Assembly: GCA_001824455.1 (NCBI GenBank)
Contig: MHXL01000071.1
Coordinates: 2,159-19,741, forward strand
From: Desulfuromonadaceae bacterium GWB2_53_15
Lineage (GTDB): Bacteria; Desulfobacterota; Desulfuromonadia; Geobacterales; Pseudopelobacteraceae
Direction: 5' to 3'
Length of the DNA: 17,583 bases
Under the pieces are notes generated by a model, which was given only the letters and a program-made list of their open reading frames with translations, was not told the DNA's origin and ran no database searches. How positions within the stretch are numbered: position 1 is the first letter of the stretch; every line of letters starts with the position of its first letter. Positions 4,447 through 15,510 of this stretch are shown in pieces. The translations under genes were made by a program, and so were the position numbers.

Positions 4447-5838
4447 ATGAAAAACAAGATCATACGTAGCGTTTTGGCAACGGTGGTACTCGTTCTCGGC
4501 GCTGCAGCGGTAATCTGGGCCAATACCCCTCCACCCCCAGCCAATCAGTTTCTGGGGCTTTATGACACCAAGTTCAGTGCTCTTACCACCAGAGAGGACT
4601 GTTTGGTGTGTCATGTGAGCGATGAGGTTCTTGTCCCACGTCACCACGCACTTATCAACACCCAGGGTATGATGTGTCTCGACTGCCACACGATGATTCC
4701 TGATGGCGCAGGCGGGTTTGTGTTTGATGATTTCAGAACCTGCTCCAAATGCCACAGCACAACACCGCACCATGTGACGACCAAAGCGGCCGCTCAGGAT
4801 TGTGTTTCGTGTCATGGCAATTTTATTGACAATCCTTTGGATGGCCACTATGTCCCATCATATCCGGCAAGCAGCGTAACACCTATGCCTGTAGGACGTC
4901 AGGTTGTTGCTCCTGATGGAAGTTCGGCAATTGTCCAAGGTTGCGCGGCTTGCCATCAGGGTGATCCAACCGCCATTGATCCGAAAACCAATACCGTTCG
5001 TAGAATTTATTCCAACAATGATACCCATCACGGGACAGGTATTGGCGCCCCTGGTGGAATCGGTAATTGCACATGGTGTCATGATACAGAAGGTGGCGTG
5101 TCCAGTATGCGTCGTTGTGAATCCTGCCATGGCGTAAAATCTCTCCACAACATACAGAAAAAATCCGCTGCTACTGCGACCATTACCCCTGGCGCCGAGG
5201 CACTGGGTTATGGTCATATCGGTAACAACTGGGATTGCCAGGGATGTCACTGGTCCTGGTATGGAAATGCCTCAGGCAGTCCAACAACCGCAATCGTTCC
5301 GGCACTTAACGGCCAGAGCAGCTATACCCTGACTGCCGGCAGAACAACCACACTGACGCTGACCGGCGCAGCCTTCACGAATGTTGATGGCAATGGCATG
5401 GTGTATAATCCGACCGTTACCATTTCCAATGCAACAACCAGCATTTCCCTGACACCCTCCCAGTTTACCGACAGCGAAATTCAGGTCTCCATCCCGGCTC
5501 TTCAGGCAGGGCTCTACGACCTTCGTGTTGCCAAACAGGGTGTGGTGAGTAACCTTGCCAATCTGACTGTTGCACCAGAACTGGCGATCAAGGCTGTGAT
5601 CGGTTCCAAGGCAACTGCTACTATCACCGGAACCGGTTTTGGATCAGCACCGCCAGCCGACTATAAATCCGGACTTGGCGTTTTCCTTGGCGAAACCCAA
5701 ATCAAGGTCAGGTCGTGGAGTAACACGAAGATTGTCGCTGTTGACAATAATCTCGTTAACGGTGCCATGGTAACGGTTAAGACTCTTAACGGCGCAATAT
5801 CCAAGGCTGTCACGGCGGCACCTAAAAAAACCCGCTGA
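4447..5838 (+). CDS. omcZ: octaheme c-type cytochrome, OmcZ-like nanowire precursor
   Basis: A 463-residue exported protein. A signal peptide covers about residues 1-25 (basic start, hydrophobic core, WA before the likely cleavage). Eight CXXCH haem c motifs start at C52, C77, C99, C119, C166, C208, C224 and C264. The haem region has nine further His residues (66, 67, 108, 109, 134, 194, 195, 234, 257), enough for bis-His ligation of every haem. After H268 there is no Cys or His; residues about 284-376 and 377-455 look like two Ig-like IPT/TIG domains. Size, haem number, the C-terminal tail and the adjacent subtilase match Geobacter OmcZ, an outer-surface cytochrome processed from about 50 to about 30 kDa that forms conductive filaments. 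A cut in the 272-290 linker would give such a product; that is inference. AGGAG lies eight bases before the ATG. Confidence 0.88.
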   Translation: MKNKIIRSVLATVVLVLGAAAVIWANTPPPPANQFLGLYDTKFSALTTREDCLVCHVSDEVLVPRHHALINTQGMMCLDCHTMIPDGAGGFVFDDFRTCSKCHSTTPHHVTTKAAAQDCVSCHGNFIDNPLDGHYVPSYPASSVTPMPVGRQVVAPDGSSAIVQGCAACHQGDPTAIDPKTNTVRRIYSNNDTHHGTGIGAPGGIGNCTWCHDTEGGVSSMRRCESCHGVKSLHNIQKKSAATATITPGAEALGYGHIGNNWDCQGCHWSWYGNASGSPTTAIVPALNGQSSYTLTAGRTTTLTLTGAAFTNVDGNGMVYNPTVTISNATTSISLTPSQFTDSEIQVSIPALQAGLYDLRVAKQGVVSNLANLTVAPELAIKAVIGSKATATITGTGFGSAPPADYKSGLGVFLGETQIKVRSWSNTKIVAVDNNLVNGAMVTVKTLNGAISKAVTAAPKKTR

Positions 5839-5866
5839 TTGCAATAGAAAATCAGACGTATTGAAT

Positions 5867-5905
5867 AAATAGATCATGGGGAGTTTTGCTCCCCGTGATC
5901 TATTT
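5867..5905 (+). terminator. strong hairpin between the omcZ-like and ozpA-like genes
   Basis: AAATAGATCATGGGGAG (5867-5883) pairs with CTCCCCGTGATCTATTT (5889-5905) across a five-base TTTTG loop: 17 bp with one G-U wobble. The 3' side ends in TATTTT, a short U-rich tail. It lies 28 bases after the cytochrome stop and 32 before the protease start. It could end a monocistronic omcZ transcript, act as a partial terminator that lowers ozpA expression, or protect the 3' end of the cytochrome mRNA. Confidence 0.7.
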
Positions 5906-5937
5906 TCATAAAATCAATGTTTAATAAGGAAATTGTC

Positions 5938-7443
5938 ATGAATCATTTAGTGGTATTCGTCATGCTGGCAGTCTTTTTGGGAATGACCTCGTTGGTGGAT
6001 GCTGCTGATAAGAAAGTTATTATTGGATTCAAAAAAGGGGCCGTTGCCTCTGAAGAAGACAGGCATCACAAGTTTAGCCGTGCTGGTGGACGCGTCAAGC
6101 GATCCCACAGGATTATCAATGCCATATCCGGCCAACTGTCGGAGGAAGAAATTGAGAAACTGAAAAACGACCCGGATGTCGCCTATATCGAGGAAGACTC
6201 CGTGGTCGGCATTACAGAACCAACATTGCTGTCTACCCCACTCACCCAGGAATATGCAGAATCGTGGGGGGTAGCTCGGATAGGTGGCAACGCAGCCGCT
6301 GCTGGAGGGATTACCGGTGCAGGCATCAAGGTTGCCGTGCTCGATTCCGGCATTGACTATAATCACCCCGAACTCAAGGGCAACTACAAGGGTGGATACA
6401 ACTTCGCATACGACAACAACGACCCGTTCGATGACGGATATATAAGCCATGGAACACATATTGCCGGGATCATCGGCGCAAGAAACAACGGAACAGGTGT
6501 GGTGGGTGTTGCCCCGGAAGTTTCCCTGTATGCGGTCAAGGTGCTGGGCGGCATGGTAATGGGGGATCTTAGCGACATTCTGGCGGGCATGGAATGGGCG
6601 ATCACCAATAATATGAACATAATAAACATGAGCATCGGTGCACCCATTGACTCAAACGCATTCAAAGATGTATGCGACAGGGCATACCAGGCCGGCATCA
6701 TTGTTGTGGCCGCGGCAGGCAATACAAACAGCAACACTATAGAATTTCCGGCTGCATATGATTCTGTAATCGCCGTGGGAGCAACTGATCAGGTCGATGC
6801 TCATCCCACCTTCTCCAACTATGGGCAGAAGCTGGAGTTGGCTGCTCCGGGTGTGACCATCAACTCAACCATGCGGGGCGGCAGTTATGGCATCCTGAAA
6901 GGTACCTCCCAGGCAACCGCCCATGTTTCAGGTGCGGCTGCCATCTTGCTGGCAAAAGGGATTGCAGACGCCAATGGCGACGGTCGAGTCGCCGATGATG
7001 TTCGCGCCCTGCTTGGTTCAAGTGCTGCTGATCTGGGCGATATTGGACGTGACCCTTACTTTGGTTTTGGCCTTGTTGATCTCTCAAAGGCTCTGACACC
7101 ACAACCTGTGACATATCATTACACCGTTGCAAGAACCATTGGATCCAGAAAAGACAATGATCTTACCGTCGCCCTGAAACCGGGTGTTTACACGGTTGAA
7201 ATCACAAATCACGGAAATATTGATCTTAAGATTCATGCTGTTGATGCCAATTGTTTCAAAGAGATTGGGCACAATAAACTCAATAAAAGACATGAAAAAC
7301 ACCCGCATAACTATAATTACCAGAGCCATGACGCCACGATATCACTCCAAGTCGCCATCGGCGATTCTGGTTCAATATCGTTCATACCCACAGGCAGCCC
7401 TGGTTCCTCTGCCGACATAGTTATTACCTCCAAAATCCTTTGA
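5938..7443 (+). CDS. ozpA: secreted subtilisin-like serine protease, OzpA-like
   Basis: A 501-residue family S8 protease. Residues 1 to about 22 are a signal peptide (LVVFVMLAVFLGMTSLVDA), followed by an I9-type propeptide (about 25-90, KKVIIGFKKG to DPDVAYIEEDSVV). The catalytic triad is D136 (VLDSGID), H171 (SHGTHIAG) and S324 (GTSQATAHVSGA), with oxyanion Asn N262 (AAAGN). DANGDGRVADD at 344-354 resembles a calcium-binding loop. Residues about 393-501 form a beta-rich C-terminal domain with a His-rich segment (445-464). I chose ATG 5938 because AAGGA lies seven bases upstream; the in-frame ATG at 5917 has no ribosome binding site. OzpA in G. sulfurreducens processes OmcZ, and direct adjacency to an OmcZ-like gene makes the same substrate likely here. 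That assignment is inference; the S8 family is certain. Confidence 0.88.
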   Translation: MNHLVVFVMLAVFLGMTSLVDAADKKVIIGFKKGAVASEEDRHHKFSRAGGRVKRSHRIINAISGQLSEEEIEKLKNDPDVAYIEEDSVVGITEPTLLSTPLTQEYAESWGVARIGGNAAAAGGITGAGIKVAVLDSGIDYNHPELKGNYKGGYNFAYDNNDPFDDGYISHGTHIAGIIGARNNGTGVVGVAPEVSLYAVKVLGGMVMGDLSDILAGMEWAITNNMNIINMSIGAPIDSNAFKDVCDRAYQAGIIVVAAAGNTNSNTIEFPAAYDSVIAVGATDQVDAHPTFSNYGQKLELAAPGVTINSTMRGGSYGILKGTSQATAHVSGAAAILLAKGIADANGDGRVADDVRALLGSSAADLGDIGRDPYFGFGLVDLSKALTPQPVTYHYTVARTIGSRKDNDLTVALKPGVYTVEITNHGNIDLKIHAVDANCFKEIGHNKLNKRHEKHPHNYNYQSHDATISLQVAIGDSGSISFIPTGSPGSSADIVITSKIL

Positions 7444-7559
7444 TATTCACTGTGTTTTTTAAGGAATCATTCTCCAATTTACTCGCAGAGACGTTAGCTA
7501 CAGGCATCCTGGTACGCGTTTTTCTACAGATAGTTCCTATAACATGAAAAGTTGAGATA

Positions 7560-8543
7560 ATGCAGATGATTGCGAAGCAGATACGGAAAAGCGGGAAAAA
7601 GTTGGGCTTTGTCATCGTGCTGGTTTTGATGGCTTCCCTTGCAGTTGCGGCTGATAGTCCTGTTGCGGATAAACAGGTGGTGGCTCGTGTTAATGGAGTA
7701 GCAATACTAGATGAAGAACTTTCCCCACTGGTGGAGAAGCGTTTTCTGGAGTATCGGAAACTTGGTGCCAAGTCCAAACCGGATGAGTTTAAACAACGTC
7801 TTCAACATGAGGTGCTGGATAGGTTGATAAATCAGGAGCTTCTTGCACAGGCTGGTGCTGCGTTGAAGTTAAATGACATTGAGCAGCGGATCCAGAAGAT
7901 TCTCGATGTTTCAGCAGTCAGTAGTGATAAAAAGATCATTCCTGAAAAGGATCTTGATACATCGCTTAGAACAAAAATCCGCAGGGATGTCTTGATAGAT
8001 GCATATCTGGATCAAAAAGGGATATCCACTCTACAGATACCTGAAAAGGAACTGCGCCTGTTTTACGATAAAAATCAAAAAAACTTTGTTGAACAGCAAA
8101 CAATCAAGGTCAGGCATATTCTTGTGCAGATCCCACGGCAGGCGTCTCATGAGAAGGAACGTGAAGCGTACATCAAGGCAAATCTGATTCTTGAGGAAGT
8201 GAAAAAAGGCAGGGATTTTGCCGAGACTGCTCGCCAGTATTCTGACTGTACAAGCAAGGAAAAAGGGGGTGATCTTGGTGCTATTGCTCCCGGTTTCATG
8301 CCCAAAGAATTCGATGCAGTTGCCTTTTTGCTAAAAGTTGGCGAAACAAGCCGCATAGTCAAAACTCGTCATGGCCTGCATATCATTCATGTCGAGGGAA
8401 AAAAGCCTGAAAAAATCAAGAAATTCTCCGAAGTAAAGACATTCATTGCCGGGTATCTTCAGAAGGATTATCAACGAAAAAAAGTTGATGAGGTTGTAAA
8501 AGAACTTAGGAAATCGGCAAAGGTGAATGTCCTCATTAATTAG
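7560..8543 (+). CDS. periplasmic parvulin-type peptidyl-prolyl cis-trans isomerase (PpiC/SurA-like)
   Basis: A 327-residue protein with a signal peptide ending near residue 30 (LVLMASLAVA, then ADSP). Residues about 36-165 form a helical SurA_N-like chaperone region (VVARVNGVAILDEEL, then QHEVLDRLINQELLAQAG). A parvulin domain spans about 183-280: VRHILVQ (184-190), FAETARQYSDC (220-230), GGDLG (236-240) and TRHGLHIIHVEG (269-280). It is expected to catalyse prolyl isomerisation and assist folding of exported proteins. It lies 116 bases after the protease, with no terminator between, so co-transcription is possible. A TATAAC at 7538-7543 resembles a -10 box, but no matching -35 was seen. The ribosome binding site before ATG 7560 is weak. 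It is not assigned to a named gene; a role in cytochrome or protease folding is inference from position. Confidence 0.85.
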   Translation: MQMIAKQIRKSGKKLGFVIVLVLMASLAVAADSPVADKQVVARVNGVAILDEELSPLVEKRFLEYRKLGAKSKPDEFKQRLQHEVLDRLINQELLAQAGAALKLNDIEQRIQKILDVSAVSSDKKIIPEKDLDTSLRTKIRRDVLIDAYLDQKGISTLQIPEKELRLFYDKNQKNFVEQQTIKVRHILVQIPRQASHEKEREAYIKANLILEEVKKGRDFAETARQYSDCTSKEKGGDLGAIAPGFMPKEFDAVAFLLKVGETSRIVKTRHGLHIIHVEGKKPEKIKKFSEVKTFIAGYLQKDYQRKKVDEVVKELRKSAKVNVLIN

Positions 8544-8619
8544 TAGTTTGCTTGTATAGGGTGGGTGTTTTTTAAAAGTTATACGTTGAGGAACGGTCCA
8601 GATTACAAGGAGTTGAATT

Positions 8620-11600
8620 ATGAGAAACGGAAAAATGGTAGTATCAACCTTTCTTCAGGTGTTGCTCGTGGTATGTATGTTGGCTTCTGTTGGTGAGGCT
8701 GCTACGTGGTCATTGAAAAATTCCACAGTCAACAGCACTACCAGTGCAACAATTGATGATGCGACACCATATACCGGATTGTACTCACTAAAAGTAGACG
8801 GGGCGGAACGGATGTGGCAACAGTGGTTCTGGTACCGACTTGGCCCGGACGGTTTTGAGTCAGCGCTGGACACTCTCACAAAAACAAGCGCATCCAAACC
8901 GACAGCAACGAGTCTTTCTCTTACGTATACCCTCGCAAGTCAGTTTGATATAACTATCCTCTATGAACTTACCCCCTATTCCCTAGGTTTGGGCAAGGCA
9001 AATATAAAGAAAACGGTTACCATAAAAAATATCTCTTCTACCGAACTTGATTACCATCTCTTTGAATATGCAGACTTCGACCTCACCGATCTGGCAACCC
9101 AGGATGACAACGTAGAAATTGTCAAAAACAGATTTTATCAGAATGGTACACAGAGTGACGGGAGTGGGGTGACACTGGTTCATGAATCCTCGCTTGCTCC
9201 AAATCAATATGATCTTGACAGTGCGCAGGCATATATATCTCCGGAATTGAAGGACGATACAACCACCAATTTTGGATTGTCGGTTCTTGAGACCCCTTAC
9301 AGGTATGGGGACGATATGCAGTTTGGCAGTCAATGGGATCTCAAGATCCCGGTGGGACAGTCGCTAACTTTTACCATTACCGACAATATTTATCCGACCT
9401 TGCCTGTTCCTGTCACACAGACCGTGAATGGTGGACAATGCGTGAGTTACGGTGGTCAGGCGGATATCAGTGTTAGTTTAACGGGAACGGCCGATAATCT
9501 CACCAATCTGAATATCGTCAATATACTTCCCAAAGACACACTGTTCTTATCGGCAACGGATGGCGGCATCCTCGACAGTGCTAGCAACAGCGTATCCTGG
9601 ACCCTGCCATCGCTATCAGCTGGCACCGGGGCATTGACACGCCAGGCCTCAATAACGGTGAATTCTACTACAGATATAGTCAATAAAGTTCTGGTAGTAA
9701 GCGATCAGGCCTTTCCGACCCGTCTGCCGGATCCTCTTCTAGAAGCCATACCTGTGTTCCCGCTTTGCAATCACCCTCCATCAATAACATCCGCTGCCAT
9801 TACCTCGGTCAATATTGAAAGTCCCTATGTCTATGCGGTGAAAGGGGCGGATGTTGATGCCGGGACAACGTTGAGTTATGTGCTGGATGTGGCTCCTGCA
9901 GGCATGGCAATCAATCCGTCAACTGGTTTCATTACCTGGAATCCATCCAAGGACAATGCCGGGTCATACCCGGTAACCGTCAGGGTAAGTGACGGTTCGT
10001 TATCAGGTACTCAGAGTTTTGTGCTGAAGGTGGTAAGTGTGCCGCTTTTTACATCAGCGCCGGTAATCTACGCAACGCTAAATCAGTCCTATACCTACGC
10101 GGTTGTTGCACTAAACCCCATTCCCAACGGAACGGTTTACTACAGTCTGGCATCAGGACCACCTGACCTGTCGGTTGGTTATGCGACTGGCATCATTACC
10201 TGGACTCCCACCGTGGCGGGGGTATACCCTATTTCAATCAAGGCAAAAGATGGTTCTGGTGAAAACTATCAGATATTTTCTATAAACATCACACTTACAC
10301 CGAACGCCTCCCCAGTTTTTACGAGTACTCCAGCCACCATCGCAACAGTGGGGTCTGTTTATACCTATAATGTTATAGCAACTGATGCGGATAATGATCC
10401 ATTGTCGTACAGCTTGACAACGTTTCCTTCAGGAATGCTTATCAGTGCCGGCGTCGTTACGTGGACACCGACTACAACCCAGTCTGCCAGTATGCAGAAT
10501 GTAACAGTGCAGGTGAGTGACAGTAAGGGTGGTATTGCTACCCAGAGTTTTGGCATAACGGTAGGAGCCGCGGCCAAACTGCCCCAAAGCATTGGTACAA
10601 TCAGCTTTATGCCTGCTACTTTGCCGGTGAACGGCATCACTACAGCCATCGCCACTGCAACATCAGGCCTTGCGTTGACTTTTAAAACACTGACACCTGC
10701 TATATGTACTGTCAGCGGCGCTACTGTCTCAGGTATAACCGCCGGCACATGCACTATCGCTGCTAACCAGGCTGGTAATACTGCCTATGAAGCTGCTGTT
10801 CAGGTAACACAGAACATCACCGTTACCAAGGCCGCAGCAACAGTCATCCTGAGCAACCTGAGCCAGATCTATGACGGAACAGGCAAAGTAGCTACGGCAA
10901 CCACCAATCCTGCTGGCCTAGCAGTAGCGATCACCTACGCAGGCAGTGCCACCGCACCGAGCGCAGTTGGAACCTACGCCGTAGTTGCCACCATCAATGA
11001 TACCAACTACAGCGGCAGCGCCACCGGCACAATGACCATCGCAAACGCCAATGCAACTGTCACCCTGTCCGGCCTGAACCAGACCTATGATGGAACAGCC
11101 AAGGCAACTACTGCAACCACCAACCCGACCGGCCTGGCAGTTAGCATCGCCTATGCCGGCAGCACGACAGCACCCACCGCCGCAGGTTCATATGCGGTGG
11201 TTGCAACTATCAATGATGCCAACTACTCGGGCAGCGCAACCGGAACCCTGGTGATTGCCAAGGCTTCCGCCACAGTTACCCTCGGAGTGCTGAGCCAGAG
11301 CTATGATGGAACAGCCAAGGCAGCAAGCGCCACCACCAACCCGACCGGCAAGACCGTTACCTTTACCTACAACGGCAGCACAACAACACCGACCGCGGCT
11401 GGCAGCTACACCGTAGTCGGCACCATCAACGACACCAACTTCAGCGGCAGCGCAACCGGCACCCTGACCATCGCCAAGGCCACCCCAGCCATCAGCTGGT
11501 CAACACCAACCGCGGTCTACGTCGGCGCGATCCTATCTTCAAGCCAACTCAACGCCACTGCCAGCACCCCTGGCTCCTTCATCTATAACCCGGCCGTCGG

Positions 11601-14600
11601 CACCGTGATGGACATTGCCGGCAACCAGACTCTGTCAACCGTCTTCACCCCGACTGATGTGGCCAACTACAACGGTGCCACAGCAAGCGTAACCCTGGCT
11701 GTCAATAACAAGCAGAATCCGACGCTCACCTGGAACAACCCGGTAGCAATTACCTACGGCACTGCTCTCTCGGCCACACAGTTAAATGCAACCGTAAGCG
11801 GCGTCATTGCAGGAACCTACACCTACACACCGGTTCTGGGTACAAAGCTTGACGCAGGCGATCAGACCCTGTCGGTTACTTTCACACCGAGCGATACAAC
11901 TACTTACAACACCGTAACCAAAACAGTTTCACTGACCGTGAACAAGGCGGCTACAACGGTTAACCTTTCCGGTCTCAGCGCTACCTATGACGGTACGGCC
12001 AAGGCTGCTACCGCCGCTACCAACCCGGCCGGACTGGCAGTTGCCATTGCCATCACCTACGCAGGAAGCATAACCGCTCCGACAGCGGCAGGCTCTTACG
12101 CCGTTGTCGCTACCGTCTCCGATAGCAACTACACAGGCAGCGCAACAGGAACACTGGTTATCTCCAAAGCTACACCTGCCATCACATGGGCAACCCCGGC
12201 TCCGGTCTACGTTGGGACGGCTCTTTCGGCAACGCAGCTTAACGCTATTGTCAGCACAGCCGGTTCTTTCGTCTACATACCGGCCGACGGTACGACCATC
12301 AACAGCGCCGGCCCACAGAATCTGTCGGTGGCCTTCACCCCGACCGATACCATCAACTACAACAATGCAAGCGCATCAGTCATCCTAACGGTCAACAGCA
12401 AAATTACACCGAGCGTTATCTGGGCCGCACCAGCGGCAATCAGCTACGGGACTGTCCTTGGCAGCAACCAGTTGAACGCCAGCGCCGGCAGCATAGCCGG
12501 CAGCTTCAGCTACAGCCCGCCCGCAGGCACGACACTGAATGCTGGCAGCCAGATCCTGACCGCAACCTTCACCCCGAGCGATACAAACACCTACAACATC
12601 GCCACCAAAACAGTAACCTTGACCGTCAACAAGGATTCTGCAGGCGTAAGTCTGAGCGGTCTTAGTGCCACCTACGACGGCTCGCCCAAAGCGGCCAGCG
12701 CCACAACCATCCCGAGCGGCCTGAGCGTAGAGCTCACTTACGACGGCAGCAGCTCCGCGCCGACGTCCGCCGGAACTTATGCTGTTGCGGCCACCATAAC
12801 CGACGCCAACTACACAGGCAGCGCAAACGGCAGTCTGACCATCACCAAGGCAACGCCGGCCATTACTTGGTCAACCCCCTCTGCGGTCTACGTCGGCACG
12901 GTTCTATCATCGACTCAGATGAATGCTAGCGCCTCCGTTGCCGGCTCGTTTACCTACACGCCTGCATCCGGCACGACCCTGAACACTGCCGGTAGCCAGA
13001 CCCTCTCGGCATCCTTCATCCCGAGTGATACGGCCAACTACAACGGTGCAACAGCAACCGTTACCCTGGCCGTCAACAGTAAGCAGAACCCAACGATCAC
13101 CTGGAATAATCCGATAGCGATCACCTACGGTACGCTTCTCTCGGCAACACAATTGAATGCAACCGTAAGCGGCGGCATTGCAGGAACCTACACCTACACA
13201 CCAATTCTGGGTACAAAGCTTAACGCAGGCAATCAGACCCTGTCGGTTACCTTCACCCCGACTGATGTGGTCACTTACAATACGACCACCAAGAGCGTAA
13301 CCCTGGCGGTTACCAAGGCAAGCGCGACAGTAGCGTTGAGCAATCTCAGCCAGACCTATAACGGTAGCGCCAGATCGGCCACGGTAAGCACCACCCCTGC
13401 TGGTCTGAGCACCATCACCACCTACGCCGGCAGCACAACCGCCCCGACGGCCTCCGGTATTTATGCCGTTGTGGCCACGATCAGCGACAGCAACTACTCA
13501 GGCAGCGCCAGCGGTAGCCTGACCATCGCCAAGGCCACCCCGGCCATTACTTGGTCAACACCCTCTGCGGTATATATCGGCACAGCTCTTTCCAGTAGCC
13601 AGCTTGACGCCACTGCCAGCACAGCCGGTTCATTCGTCTACAGCCCGGCTAGCGGCACGACCCTGACCAGCGCCGGTGCCCAGACGCTGTCGGCAGCCTT
13701 CACCCCGAGTGATACGGCCAACTACAATATTGCAACAGCAACAGTTACCCTGACAGTCAATGACAATAGCACCACCAATCAGCCACCTGTCATTACCTCT
13801 TCTCCGGTAACGGTTGCTTATGAAAAAGGATATTTTTACTATCAGGTTGCAGCTTCCGATCCTAATGGGGAAGTCGTCAAGTTCTCATTATCAATAAAAC
13901 CATCGGGGATGAACATAAATTCTAAAACTGGTGTTATTTCGTGGCGGCCATCAGACAGCGGAACCTACTCGGTCATCGTGAAGGCAAGCGATCCAGCCGG
14001 TCTATATTCAACTCAGAGTTTCAAGGTGACGGTTTTAAATCATATTCCAAACAATCCACCGAAAATTGCCTCTGAGCCTGTTCTGTCTGTAACAGCGGGA
14101 ATGCTCTATACATATGATGTAAATGCCACGGATCCTGATGGCGATGCTTTGTTCTATCGGCTTATAACTGCTCCGGCGGGTATGTCAATTGATGATTCTA
14201 CTGGGTTGATCACCTGGATTCCATTTTCATCTCAGGCCGGGGTAAAAAAGGTTGTTGTTGAGGCAGTGGACATTAAGGGTGGGAAAGTAGCACAAAGTTT
14301 CAATATCTCTGTTTTGATTGCTACAGTTCCAATGAACAATCCACCGACCATAATCACGACTCCGGTAGCCAGCGCAATTAAGGGGAGTGTTTATTCATAT
14401 GACCTACAAGCAAGTGATCCTGATGGAGATGCCATCGTGTATTCACTCGTTTCAAAGCCTTATGGCATGACAATTAACTCTTCAACGGGTAATATCACAT
14501 GGAAACCATCAACTACAGGTAGTTATAAGGTTTCTGTAAATGCAACCGATAATAAAGGTGCATATACAACTCAGAGTTATACCCTTACGGTTGGCTCTGC

Positions 14601-14646
14601 CTTTAGTGGCTCCAATGCCTGGGAAAAGGGTGCTTTTCGTAATTGA
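8620..14646 (+). CDS. giant secreted Ig-like/cadherin-like repeat protein (2008 aa)
   Basis: A signal peptide (about 1-27, ending VGEA) opens the protein. Residues 28 to about 258 are a region I cannot assign (TWSLKNSTVN onward, Trp-rich at 66-72). About 262-380 is DUF11-like (VSLTGTADNLTNLNIVNILP). Three cadherin-like/He_PIG domains follow (about 385-473, 475-562, 565-650), then an Ig-like domain with a Cys pair (C696, C711), then thirteen MBG/Ig-like repeats (738-1715), then three more He_PIG domains (about 1721-1806, 1809-1898, 1906-1992) and a short tail ending EKGAFRN. C274 and C383 bracket the DUF11-like domain. No catalytic motif, LPXTG, PEP-CTERM or membrane anchor was seen. AAGGAG at 8607-8612 lies seven bases before the ATG. 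A surface or matrix scaffold or adhesin role is inferred from architecture and from the upstream cytochrome maturation genes. Confidence 0.88.
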   Translation: MRNGKMVVSTFLQVLLVVCMLASVGEAATWSLKNSTVNSTTSATIDDATPYTGLYSLKVDGAERMWQQWFWYRLGPDGFESALDTLTKTSASKPTATSLSLTYTLASQFDITILYELTPYSLGLGKANIKKTVTIKNISSTELDYHLFEYADFDLTDLATQDDNVEIVKNRFYQNGTQSDGSGVTLVHESSLAPNQYDLDSAQAYISPELKDDTTTNFGLSVLETPYRYGDDMQFGSQWDLKIPVGQSLTFTITDNIYPTLPVPVTQTVNGGQCVSYGGQADISVSLTGTADNLTNLNIVNILPKDTLFLSATDGGILDSASNSVSWTLPSLSAGTGALTRQASITVNSTTDIVNKVLVVSDQAFPTRLPDPLLEAIPVFPLCNHPPSITSAAITSVNIESPYVYAVKGADVDAGTTLSYVLDVAPAGMAINPSTGFITWNPSKDNAGSYPVTVRVSDGSLSGTQSFVLKVVSVPLFTSAPVIYATLNQSYTYAVVALNPIPNGTVYYSLASGPPDLSVGYATGIITWTPTVAGVYPISIKAKDGSGENYQIFSINITLTPNASPVFTSTPATIATVGSVYTYNVIATDADNDPLSYSLTTFPSGMLISAGVVTWTPTTTQSASMQNVTVQVSDSKGGIATQSFGITVGAAAKLPQSIGTISFMPATLPVNGITTAIATATSGLALTFKTLTPAICTVSGATVSGITAGTCTIAANQAGNTAYEAAVQVTQNITVTKAAATVILSNLSQIYDGTGKVATATTNPAGLAVAITYAGSATAPSAVGTYAVVATINDTNYSGSATGTMTIANANATVTLSGLNQTYDGTAKATTATTNPTGLAVSIAYAGSTTAPTAAGSYAVVATINDANYSGSATGTLVIAKASATVTLGVLSQSYDGTAKAASATTNPTGKTVTFTYNGSTTTPTAAGSYTVVGTINDTNFSGSATGTLTIAKATPAISWSTPTAVYVGAILSSSQLNATASTPGSFIYNPAVGTVMDIAGNQTLSTVFTPTDVANYNGATASVTLAVNNKQNPTLTWNNPVAITYGTALSATQLNATVSGVIAGTYTYTPVLGTKLDAGDQTLSVTFTPSDTTTYNTVTKTVSLTVNKAATTVNLSGLSATYDGTAKAATAATNPAGLAVAIAITYAGSITAPTAAGSYAVVATVSDSNYTGSATGTLVISKATPAITWATPAPVYVGTALSATQLNAIVSTAGSFVYIPADGTTINSAGPQNLSVAFTPTDTINYNNASASVILTVNSKITPSVIWAAPAAISYGTVLGSNQLNASAGSIAGSFSYSPPAGTTLNAGSQILTATFTPSDTNTYNIATKTVTLTVNKDSAGVSLSGLSATYDGSPKAASATTIPSGLSVELTYDGSSSAPTSAGTYAVAATITDANYTGSANGSLTITKATPAITWSTPSAVYVGTVLSSTQMNASASVAGSFTYTPASGTTLNTAGSQTLSASFIPSDTANYNGATATVTLAVNSKQNPTITWNNPIAITYGTLLSATQLNATVSGGIAGTYTYTPILGTKLNAGNQTLSVTFTPTDVVTYNTTTKSVTLAVTKASATVALSNLSQTYNGSARSATVSTTPAGLSTITTYAGSTTAPTASGIYAVVATISDSNYSGSASGSLTIAKATPAITWSTPSAVYIGTALSSSQLDATASTAGSFVYSPASGTTLTSAGAQTLSAAFTPSDTANYNIATATVTLTVNDNSTTNQPPVITSSPVTVAYEKGYFYYQVAASDPNGEVVKFSLSIKPSGMNINSKTGVISWRPSDSGTYSVIVKASDPAGLYSTQSFKVTVLNHIPNNPPKIASEPVLSVTAGMLYTYDVNATDPDGDALFYRLITAPAGMSIDDSTGLITWIPFSSQAGVKKVVVEAVDIKGGKVAQSFNISVLIATVPMNNPPTIITTPVASAIKGSVYSYDLQASDPDGDAIVYSLVSKPYGMTINSSTGNITWKPSTTGSYKVSVNATDNKGAYTTQSYTLTVGSAFSGSNAWEKGAFRN
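9772..10569 (+). repeat. N-terminal trio of cadherin-like/He_PIG domains
   Basis: Three diverged domains of about 85-90 codons. Each has the pattern P-x-I/F-TS, then Y-x-Y-x-V, then SxxT/A-G-x-I/V-T-W-x-P, then a V-x-V/A-x-D/S-G strand. Examples are STGFITWNPS, ATGIITWTPT and SAGVVTWTPT. They diverge at the DNA level, so they are old duplications. Confidence 0.8.
10831..13764 (+). repeat. nested tandem repeat array of two Ig-like modules, order AAABBABBABBAB
   Basis: Module A (72 codons, 74 in A4) carries Y-D/N-G-T/S-x-K/R and ends near NYSGSATGTLTIAK; it matches MBG/YDG-type domains. Module B (77-78 codons) opens ATPAITWSTP or QNPTITWNNP, carries Y-V/G-GT-LS-x-QLNA and FTPSDTxxYN, and ends in LTVNK. 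Starts: A1 10831, A2 11047, A3 11263, B1 11479, B2 11713, A4 11947, B3 12169, B4 12403, A5 12634, B5 12850, B6 13084, A6 13318, B7 13534. From A3 the unit is A-B-B with a period of 684-687 bases; the last copy has one B. All length changes keep the frame. Confidence 0.9.
13780..14595 (+). repeat. C-terminal trio of cadherin-like/He_PIG domains
   Basis: Three domains, each opening N-x-PP-x-I and carrying Y-x-Y-x-V/L-x-A-x-DP-D/N-G followed by G-M-x-I-(N/D) and G-x-I-(S/T)-W. DPDGDA occurs in the second and third, resembling calcium-binding cadherin-like motifs. They mirror the N-terminal trio, so the A/B array is inserted between two similar sets. Confidence 0.8.
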
Positions 14647-14772: not shown

Positions 14773-15510
14773 ATGCTTAACGGAAAGAAAATAATCGTAA
14801 TCCTGCCGGCCTATAACGCTGCAAAAACCTTGGAGACGACCTGGAAAGAAATTCCCTTCGATTTTGTTGATGATGTGGTGCTTGTAGATGATGCTTCACG
14901 GGATAACACCGTGGAAGAAGCTGAACGGCTGGGGATCAAAACCATCGTTCATGTGGCCAACAGAGGCTATGGAGGTAATCAGAAAACCTGTTATCGTGCT
15001 GCGCTTGAGCTGGGGGCCGACATTGTGGTGATGCTGCACCCGGATTATCAGTATACTCCGCGCTTGATCACAGCGATGGCGGCCATGATCGCCTGGGAAG
15101 AGTTTGACGCCGTGCTGGCTTCCCGAATTTTGGGACGGGGAGCGCTCAAGGGCGGAATGCCTTTATATAAGTATGTATCCAACCGTTTTCTGACCCTTGC
15201 CGAGAATCTGTTGCTCGGGCAGAAACTCTCCGAATATCACACAGGTTATCGAGCCTTTTCCCGTGAGGTGTTGAAGCGCCTGCCGCTGGAGCAGAATTCG
15301 GATGATTTCGTATTTGATAACCAGATGTTGGCCCAGATTGCCTGGTTTGGTTTCCGTATTGGTGAGGTGAGTTGCCCAACCCGTTATTTTCCCGAGGCAT
15401 CATCAATCAACTTCCGCAGAAGCGTGATCTATGGGGTGGGTGTTCTCAGGACGGCCCTGCAGTACCGGCTTGCTCGGATGGGCCTGATCAAACCAAGTTT
15501 ATATCAGTAA
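14773..15510 (+). CDS. family 2 glycosyltransferase (DPM1-like)
   Basis: A 245-residue GT-A fold glycosyltransferase. Seen motifs are [13 protein letters not shown] (11-23), the nucleotide-binding [11 protein letters not shown] (36-46), [11 protein letters not shown] (63-73), and the metal/donor region [12 protein letters not shown] (85-96), followed by the [17 protein letters not shown] acceptor-side region. No transmembrane helix follows the catalytic domain, unlike GtrB-type enzymes, so it is probably soluble or peripheral. Family members move a sugar from a nucleotide donor to a polyprenyl phosphate or a glycan; the donor and acceptor cannot be told here. It sits 126 bases after the giant gene with no clear terminator between, and is followed by a strong bidirectional terminator. 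A role in surface polysaccharide or in glycosylation of the upstream secreted proteins is possible but unsupported. Confidence 0.88.

Follow-up and report, generated by a model that had tools for sequence, protein, structure and literature searches.

The cytochrome nanowire protein OmcZ of Geobacter sulfurreducens is encoded in a cluster of three adjacent genes: omcZ (GSU2076), the subtilase gene ozpA (GSU2075) and a gene for a peptidyl-prolyl isomerase (PPIase, GSU2074; PMC5585712, PMC9473688, PMC11208441). The trio has been described as the OmcZ nanowire assembly cluster, and occurs also in Methanoperedens and Borgs (PMC11208441). Here we describe a 17,583-nucleotide stretch of DNA (the window, meaning this whole stretch) from Desulfuromonadaceae bacterium GWB2_53_15, contig MHXL01000071.1, whose source assembly comprises 1.83 Mb in 189 contigs and is 52% complete. 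In the window omcZ, ozpA and the PPIase gene (ppi) are contiguous in the arrangement of that cluster and are followed by a fourth gene for a giant protein built of immunoglobulin (Ig)-like domains. Like the G. sulfurreducens cluster, the window has the same three kinds of gene side by side and an OmcZ that is alike over its full length, Ig tail included; it differs in the added fourth gene and in haem 2 of OmcZ, which is bound by CXXCH instead of CX14CH. We assign a probability of about 0.5 to the reading that this is an OmcZ assembly cluster with a fourth gene typical of its order (Geobacterales), whose giant Ig-array product is dedicated to OmcZ as a filament scaffold or tether.

The block comprises four consecutive open reading frames (ORFs):

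4447..5838, + strand: omcZ, precursor of the octahaem filament cytochrome with a TIG/Ig tail, 463 aa (Pfam, PDB match, haem motifs)
5917..7443, + strand: ozpA-type subtilase, 508 aa, with Inhibitor_I9 propeptide and Peptidase_S8 domain (Pfam)
7560..8543, + strand: periplasmic SurA/PpiC-type prolyl isomerase, 327 aa, with SurA_N and Rotamase domains (Pfam)
8620..14646, + strand: giant secreted protein, fourth gene of the block, 2008 aa (ORF, Pfam, linkage)

The gaps are 78 bp (omcZ-ozpA), 116 bp (ozpA-ppi) and 76 bp (ppi-giant). The initial annotation had described four co-directional ORFs for an octahaem cytochrome with an Ig tail, an S8 protease, a prolyl isomerase and a 2008-residue secreted Ig protein; positions, lengths and gaps proved correct, and Pfam and PDB matches confirmed the identities. 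The subtilase carries DSG, HGTH and GTSQ at residues 143, 178 and 329, which we take to be its catalytic triad. An I9 plus S8 subtilase directly downstream of omcZ is what is expected of OzpA, and the enzyme presumably cuts the OmcZ precursor. Genes 1 to 3 are already in print, the prolyl isomerase having been placed in the OmcZ cluster by PMC11208441 and PMC5585712, and the novelty lies in gene 4. A giant fourth protein was not found in the OmcZ literature searched, where Gu et al. 2023 and Kai et al. 2021 were represented through citing papers and may mention it, and a full-text literature search returned no mention of GSU2073 or GSU2072.

To follow the giant through the order, 141 genomes were searched with OmcZ, with residues 1-370 of the giant and finally with a profile built from 12 rows of this stretch of the protein. 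OmcZ matched in 16 of them, one of which (G100) has only a short decahaem paralogue, leaving 15 with full-length omcZ. The giant N-terminus was present in 14 genomes, every one an omcZ carrier, and was found by neither sequence nor profile search in any of the 126 without full-length omcZ (Fisher's test 2e-18, kinship ignored). This co-occurrence spans 7 of 29 genera with a patchy distribution of omcZ, and among the rows listed the two genes are jointly present or jointly absent in genera g1, g2 and g3. The 15 omcZ genomes hold 16 loci, as G082 has two; the G022 locus reaches a contig end, so that 15 are readable downstream. At 14 of these the giant lies inside the omcZ block, at 12 of them in the order omcZ-ozpA-ppi-giant. 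A six-haem ORF precedes the giant in G021, and giant and ppi are swapped in G070. At the 12 loci the spacing of ozpA, ppi and giant varies between a 4-bp overlap and a gap of 123 bp; in G070 the gaps measure 111 and 163 bp, all as reckoned from mechanically chosen start codons. The genes flanking the block are common only to subsets of loci, which argues against a single conserved neighbourhood carrying the block with it.

With the same four genes side by side at 14 of 15 readable loci, chance does not account for the block. The evidence tying the giant to the OmcZ system of this order is strong, and the protein is probably a dedicated, uncharacterised partner of the OmcZ wire. The initial annotation had set beforehand that a want of conserved linkage with omcZ would speak against such a module, and the linkage was kept. 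Its proposal that the last two genes are part of the module stands for the prolyl isomerase, which is already published and so no new member, and for the giant by virtue of linkage. The giant is present in the named strains Pelotalea chapellei, Geomobilimonas luticola and Geobacter sp. AOG1; G. sulfurreducens was absent among the 16 named omcZ loci of one contig scan. In the protein database two giant queries gave 13 and 6 matches, query included, named MBG- or Ig-like domain protein or hypothetical; as only the top word-sharing candidates of similar length were scored, these lists are no census.

The giant begins with a signal peptide, recognised by eye, and divides as follows:

8698..9402, + strand: head domain, residues 27-261, predicted galactose-mutarotase-like supersandwich
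9403..9729, + strand: second domain, residues 262-370, DUF11/InlJ_IG-like (Pfam in family members)
9772..10539, + strand: three He_PIG-type Ig domains, limits approximate (Pfam)
10822..13734, + strand: MBG_3-rich Ig array, limits approximate, G+C about 55-59% (Pfam, composition)
13762..14595, + strand: three C-terminal He_PIG domains, then a short tail (Pfam)

Pfam recognised six He_PIG and six MBG_3 stretches in all, and no family in the N-terminal ~370 residues at E up to 0.01. The second domain was matched in 12 family members at E up to 10 by DUF11 (6 of 12) and InlJ_IG (8 of 12), and by neither in the window giant's own sequence. In an AlphaFold model the head (residues 27-260) takes a galactose-mutarotase-like supersandwich fold, and is thus predicted to share a fold typical of sugar-handling enzymes, namely of the N-domains of GH94, GH15 and GH65 and of aldose epimerases. 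It differs from these in its sequence (8-14% identity to galactose mutarotase-like structures) and in being fused to an Ig array. No Aldose_epim or GH94/GH15 N-domain family was listed for 12 head members at E up to 10, and a profile search of the PDB with the head returned no galactose-mutarotase-like chain. Adaptor mu-homology and integrin chains, which matched the two-domain model, were set aside for their high rmsd. No PEP-CTERM, LPXTG, dockerin or other anchor was seen at the C-terminus of the window giant by Pfam or on inspection of the tail. The six complete giants, as mechanical ORFs, measure 1119, 1493, 1546, 2008, 2385 and 3245 aa, the remaining linked ones being cut by contig ends or runs of N, and the domain make-up of the arrays varies between copies.

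The long variable Ig array, the signal peptide, the lack of a visible anchor, the sugar-type head and the anchoring of cytochromes by extracellular polymeric substances (EPS) together point to a tether. In a published account EPS serves as the anchor of cytochromes in the matrix, and OmcZS is released to that matrix (PMC4974642). A scaffold or adhesin role fits the giant's architecture and the predicted sugar-handling fold of its head. We rank a filament-to-matrix tether first, and a general adhesin co-expressed with omcZ second. The analysis shows gene identity, linkage, co-occurrence, the predicted head fold and the hairpin covariation described below, while we infer export of the giant, glycan binding, contact with OmcZ and a function for the hairpin.

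A number of observations weigh against a giant dedicated to OmcZ. In G074 three multihaem ORFs come after ozpA, with the giant on another contig beside an Lcl_C gene; in G022 (70% complete) omcZ runs to the contig end and the giant was not found in the genome; and the omcZ-giant distance correlation possibly reflects mere shared descent. The lost linkage and the correlation would both suit neutral hitch-hiking, with the giant in place by descent and functionally unrelated. Linkage at 14 of 15 loci, and a co-occurrence of 14 against 0 across genera in which omcZ is patchy, make this very improbable.

The giant family can also stand away from omcZ. Extra head copies lie on omcZ-less contigs in G101, G087, G021 and G120, and as two fragments in G082, and the only head copy of G074 is unlinked. 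Unlinked giants adjoin unrelated genes (Lcl_C, P-type ATPase, LPG_synthase_C), and in a tree of 19 heads the unlinked copies of G120, G101 and G087 are sister to the linked copy of the same genome, each with starred support. Repeated duplication out of the omcZ block would be the simplest reading of this tree; the same three sister pairs disfavour one ancient unlinked family that landed once beside omcZ. Close relatives beside unrelated genes are what would be expected if the giant served biofilms generally, as an adhesin or matrix protein whose expression goes with that of omcZ because both support surface-attached growth, and made no contact with OmcZ. Adhesins often contain such Ig arrays, and the giant shares tandem arrays of variable length with MBG/He_PIG cadherin-like surface proteins. 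However, it differs from them in its conserved distinctive head, its linkage to omcZ and, in the window copy, the lack of a recognised C-terminal anchor. The omcZ-less genomes of the order should need adhesins too, but the head was found in none of the 126, and the linkage to omcZ outlasts changes in flanking genes. We regard a general adhesin as possible, if somewhat unlikely.

Dockerin-like C-terminal repeats were seen by eye in three unlinked copies (L065:8299-11448, L067:3401-5038 and L069:9334-11937), in which Pfam called no dockerin. The ORF after the head ORF in the G021 omcZ block (L034:13655-17080) has a similar end, likewise by eye only. Cohesin domains occur in all 14 giant-bearing genomes; as the count covers only these omcZ carriers of the order, it was not used as evidence.

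Further points against a dedicated giant come from outside the order. A phylum sample of 395 genomes contained seven further omcZ genomes, each with one omcZ locus that has ozpA and the isomerase gene close by. The order omcZ-ozpA-ppi holds in G508, G490, G282 (with an extra gene between omcZ and ozpA) and G434; ppi is upstream of omcZ in G458 and G476, and the trio of G427 lies within a larger haem-protein cluster. The giant head is absent from the omcZ loci of all seven, none of which is among the 17 genomes matching the head profile. Since these genomes do without it, the giant is not a requirement of filament assembly as such. The four loci in the order omcZ-ozpA-ppi resemble the window in having the trio and a hairpin after omcZ, and differ in that the slot after ppi is taken by a tetrahaem cytochrome of 158-165 aa instead of the giant. 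These findings bear on whether the giant is instead a client of OzpA or the PPIase that works in maturation, for example by inhibiting the protease or acting as its decoy in the periplasm, or as an OmcZ export factor. Its position close behind ozpA and ppi at 12 loci and the Ig-type β-sandwich theme that it shares with the OmcZ tail would agree with such a role. We hold this to be improbable, as the seven outside genomes keep the core without the giant, and arrays of 1119-3245 aa with varying domains suit an extracellular spacer better.

Turning to the protein itself, a shared supersandwich fold shows no function, sugar binding by the head being a prediction from the model, and the window giant showed no copy of a motif patterned on the OzpA site. 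In G. sulfurreducens, transposon insertions in GSU2074 caused strong defects on electrodes, and insertions in most omcZ-operon genes were harmful, but those in omcZ itself were not picked up (PMC5585712). Because insertions in omcZ gave no defect, this data set says little about partners of OmcZ.

Several features of the outside loci stand apart from these comparisons. The small tetrahaem cytochromes after ppi lie at L134:7610-8092, L135:10740-11237, L137:8541-9017 and L139:11335-11829. G282 encodes a secreted Dockerin_1 protein between omcZ and ozpA (L137:12618-14201), with shorter relatives upstream of omcZ in G508 and G490; its reading as a divergent giant head was rejected (hhalign probability 0.4%). 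Two extra omcZ copies in G458 have no ozpA or ppi within the 20 kb examined. The distant genome G212 encodes the head alone, in a 261-aa protein with a PEP-CTERM end. The giant was not seen at three archaeal Methanoperedens-type loci, of which L085 ends inside ozpA and L087 3.4 kb after ozpA. In the latter (Methanoperedenaceae, L087:1939-11329) four OmcZ-like octahaem genes precede ozpA, and there are ORFs with 24 and 22 haems.

A second conserved element of the block is RNA-level structure between its first two genes:

5869..5903, + strand: intercistronic hairpin, 30 nt after the omcZ stop codon, -25.8 kcal/mol fold

At each of the 15 order loci inspected, omcZ is followed by a hairpin of -20 to -33 kcal/mol, which lies 13-40 nt past the stop codon in 14 of them and 148 nt past it in G082b. 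Across 13 of the 15 (G101 and G021 left out) 98.8% of cells pair, and in 13 of 17 pairs both partners have changed; the covariation score was reached by 0 of 500 shuffles, and slid controls collapse. Local folds in 14 omcZ-ozpA gaps reach -22 to -38 kcal/mol, as against -2 to -30 in 33 other co-directional gaps (p 2e-6; the omcZ-gap energies are approximate, as these gaps were folded on the contig + strand regardless of gene direction). The ozpA-ppi and ppi-giant gaps of the loci other than G070 hold no hairpin beyond -13.5. An exact pattern of the hairpin core occurs once in the searched half of the source genome (control 0). A looser pattern, applied to 11 relatives, was found solely at omcZ in G070, G076, G082, G087 and G119, at omcZ and other sites in G074 and G101, only at other sites in G024, G031 and G120, and nowhere in G067; its reversed control also matches in G070, G074, G024 and G031. 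Given these uneven pattern searches, structure and place of the hairpin are conserved better than its sequence. At seven bacterial loci from outside the order, omcZ or an omcZ-like gene is likewise succeeded by a strong stem (by eye). In archaeal L085 a hairpin and then a T run follow omcZ, and the short gaps of L087 (14 bp) and L086 (18 bp) have none, again by eye.

As only 6 of 15 hairpins have a T-rich tail (5 or more T within 8 bases near the stem end), termination and 3'-end protection are both possible functions. The T-rich tails, the T run in L085 and the finding that 9 of the 33 other co-directional gaps fold at -21 kcal/mol or stronger, the G070 ozpA-giant gap included, would suit an ordinary transcription terminator with the downstream genes under their own promoter. 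Against this, the T tract is missing in 9 of 15 hairpins, omcZ and GSU2075 share one operon in G. sulfurreducens (PMC2680965), and a scan found sigma-70 promoter-like sites at the number expected from shuffles (14 versus 13.4). The same scan found 9 terminators (11.6 expected) and did not list the omcZ hairpin, and no known RNA family in the window reached its gathering threshold. We consider a plain terminator a real possibility, at somewhat under even odds.

Alternatively, the hairpin may uncouple omcZ mRNA from that of the downstream genes. RNA-seq of a G. sulfurreducens regulator mutant showed a rise of ozpA and no differential expression of omcZ (PMC10599522), a split that fits uncoupling at the omcZ-ozpA junction. 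The puf operon of Rhodobacter likewise has a stem-loop between operon segments for unequally needed components (PMC6238624); the omcZ hairpin differs in being known from sequence alone, and a stabilising role for it would be by analogy. The strong hairpin between omcZ and ozpA makes read-through along the whole block uncertain; the gaps from ozpA through ppi to the giant are mostly short.

A tether to the matrix could then work as follows. The OmcZ precursor would be exported and loaded with haem, the PPIase would aid the folding of β-rich partners, and OzpA would remove the Ig tail so that OmcZ polymerises. The giant, exported alongside OmcZ, OzpA and the PPIase, would form a long extracellular tether of variable length, whose mutarotase-like head would bind polysaccharide and whose Ig array would keep OmcZ filaments within the matrix or close to the cell. 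The conserved hairpin would keep omcZ mRNA in excess over that of protease, isomerase and giant. We offer this full version, in which a giant with a polysaccharide-binding head ties conductive filaments into the EPS matrix and is kept substoichiometric through the hairpin after omcZ, only tentatively.

The window OmcZ was compared with known structures. Gene 1 matches PDB entry 8d9m (473 aa), which we take to be full-length OmcZ, over residues 2-462 (E 1e-168). It also matches 7lq5 (E 4e-103), which is OmcZ according to PMC11208441; in the database used both entries carry only the label 'Cytochrome c'. These matches make gene 1 an OmcZ orthologue from end to end, Ig tail included. Its eight CXXCH motifs lie at residues 52, 77, 99, 119, 166, 208, 224 and 264 and its C-terminal TIG/Ig domain at 294-372 (Pfam); in the cleavage region after the haem domain it reads YGNAS where the reference has FGNSS. 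Haem 2 is canonical (C77-H81), not the CX14CH of G. sulfurreducens. Among 15 aligned OmcZ sequences the window and six relatives have CXXCH here and the other eight a longer CXnCH; the former make up one clade (SH-aLRT 96, quick tree), in which the loop was probably lost once. Since the loop varies among OmcZ homologues (PMC11208441), CX14CH is not needed for membership of the family. The loop has been tied to the reduction of soluble acceptors (PMC11208441), and because it is absent the window OmcZ may favour insoluble ones.

Other cytochromes resemble or accompany OmcZ. Contig C52 of the source genome encodes a 324-aa decahaem protein (L041:13561-14535) that resembles the OmcZ haem domain and has no Ig tail, with comparable copies in G070, G074, G101 and G100. 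A large cytochrome with 23 CXXCH motifs stands upstream of omcZ at L026:15676-19926, L027:3725-8077, L028:7052-12436, L029:8454-12680 and L037:14836-17895, accompanied by an NHL-repeat protein in L028 and L037; it is not beside omcZ in the window.

Downstream of the block, a family-2 glycosyltransferase gene (14773-15510) lies on the same strand 126 bp after the giant. The other omcZ loci showed no match to this gene, although several of them break off within the giant. Beyond it the genes are on the opposite strand, among them a DUF2232 gene and one that is presumably rplI.

The giant bears on how cytochrome nanowires are held in the biofilm and joined to cells and matrix, as a conserved, omcZ-restricted candidate gene that shares a block with the wire subunit and its protease. 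To our knowledge no accessory scaffold has been described before for extracellular cytochrome filaments, and the giant, if it is one, would be the first. Its occurrence in named strains makes it open to genetic test, and the hairpin offers a separate testable idea of how the amounts of subunit and protease may be set.

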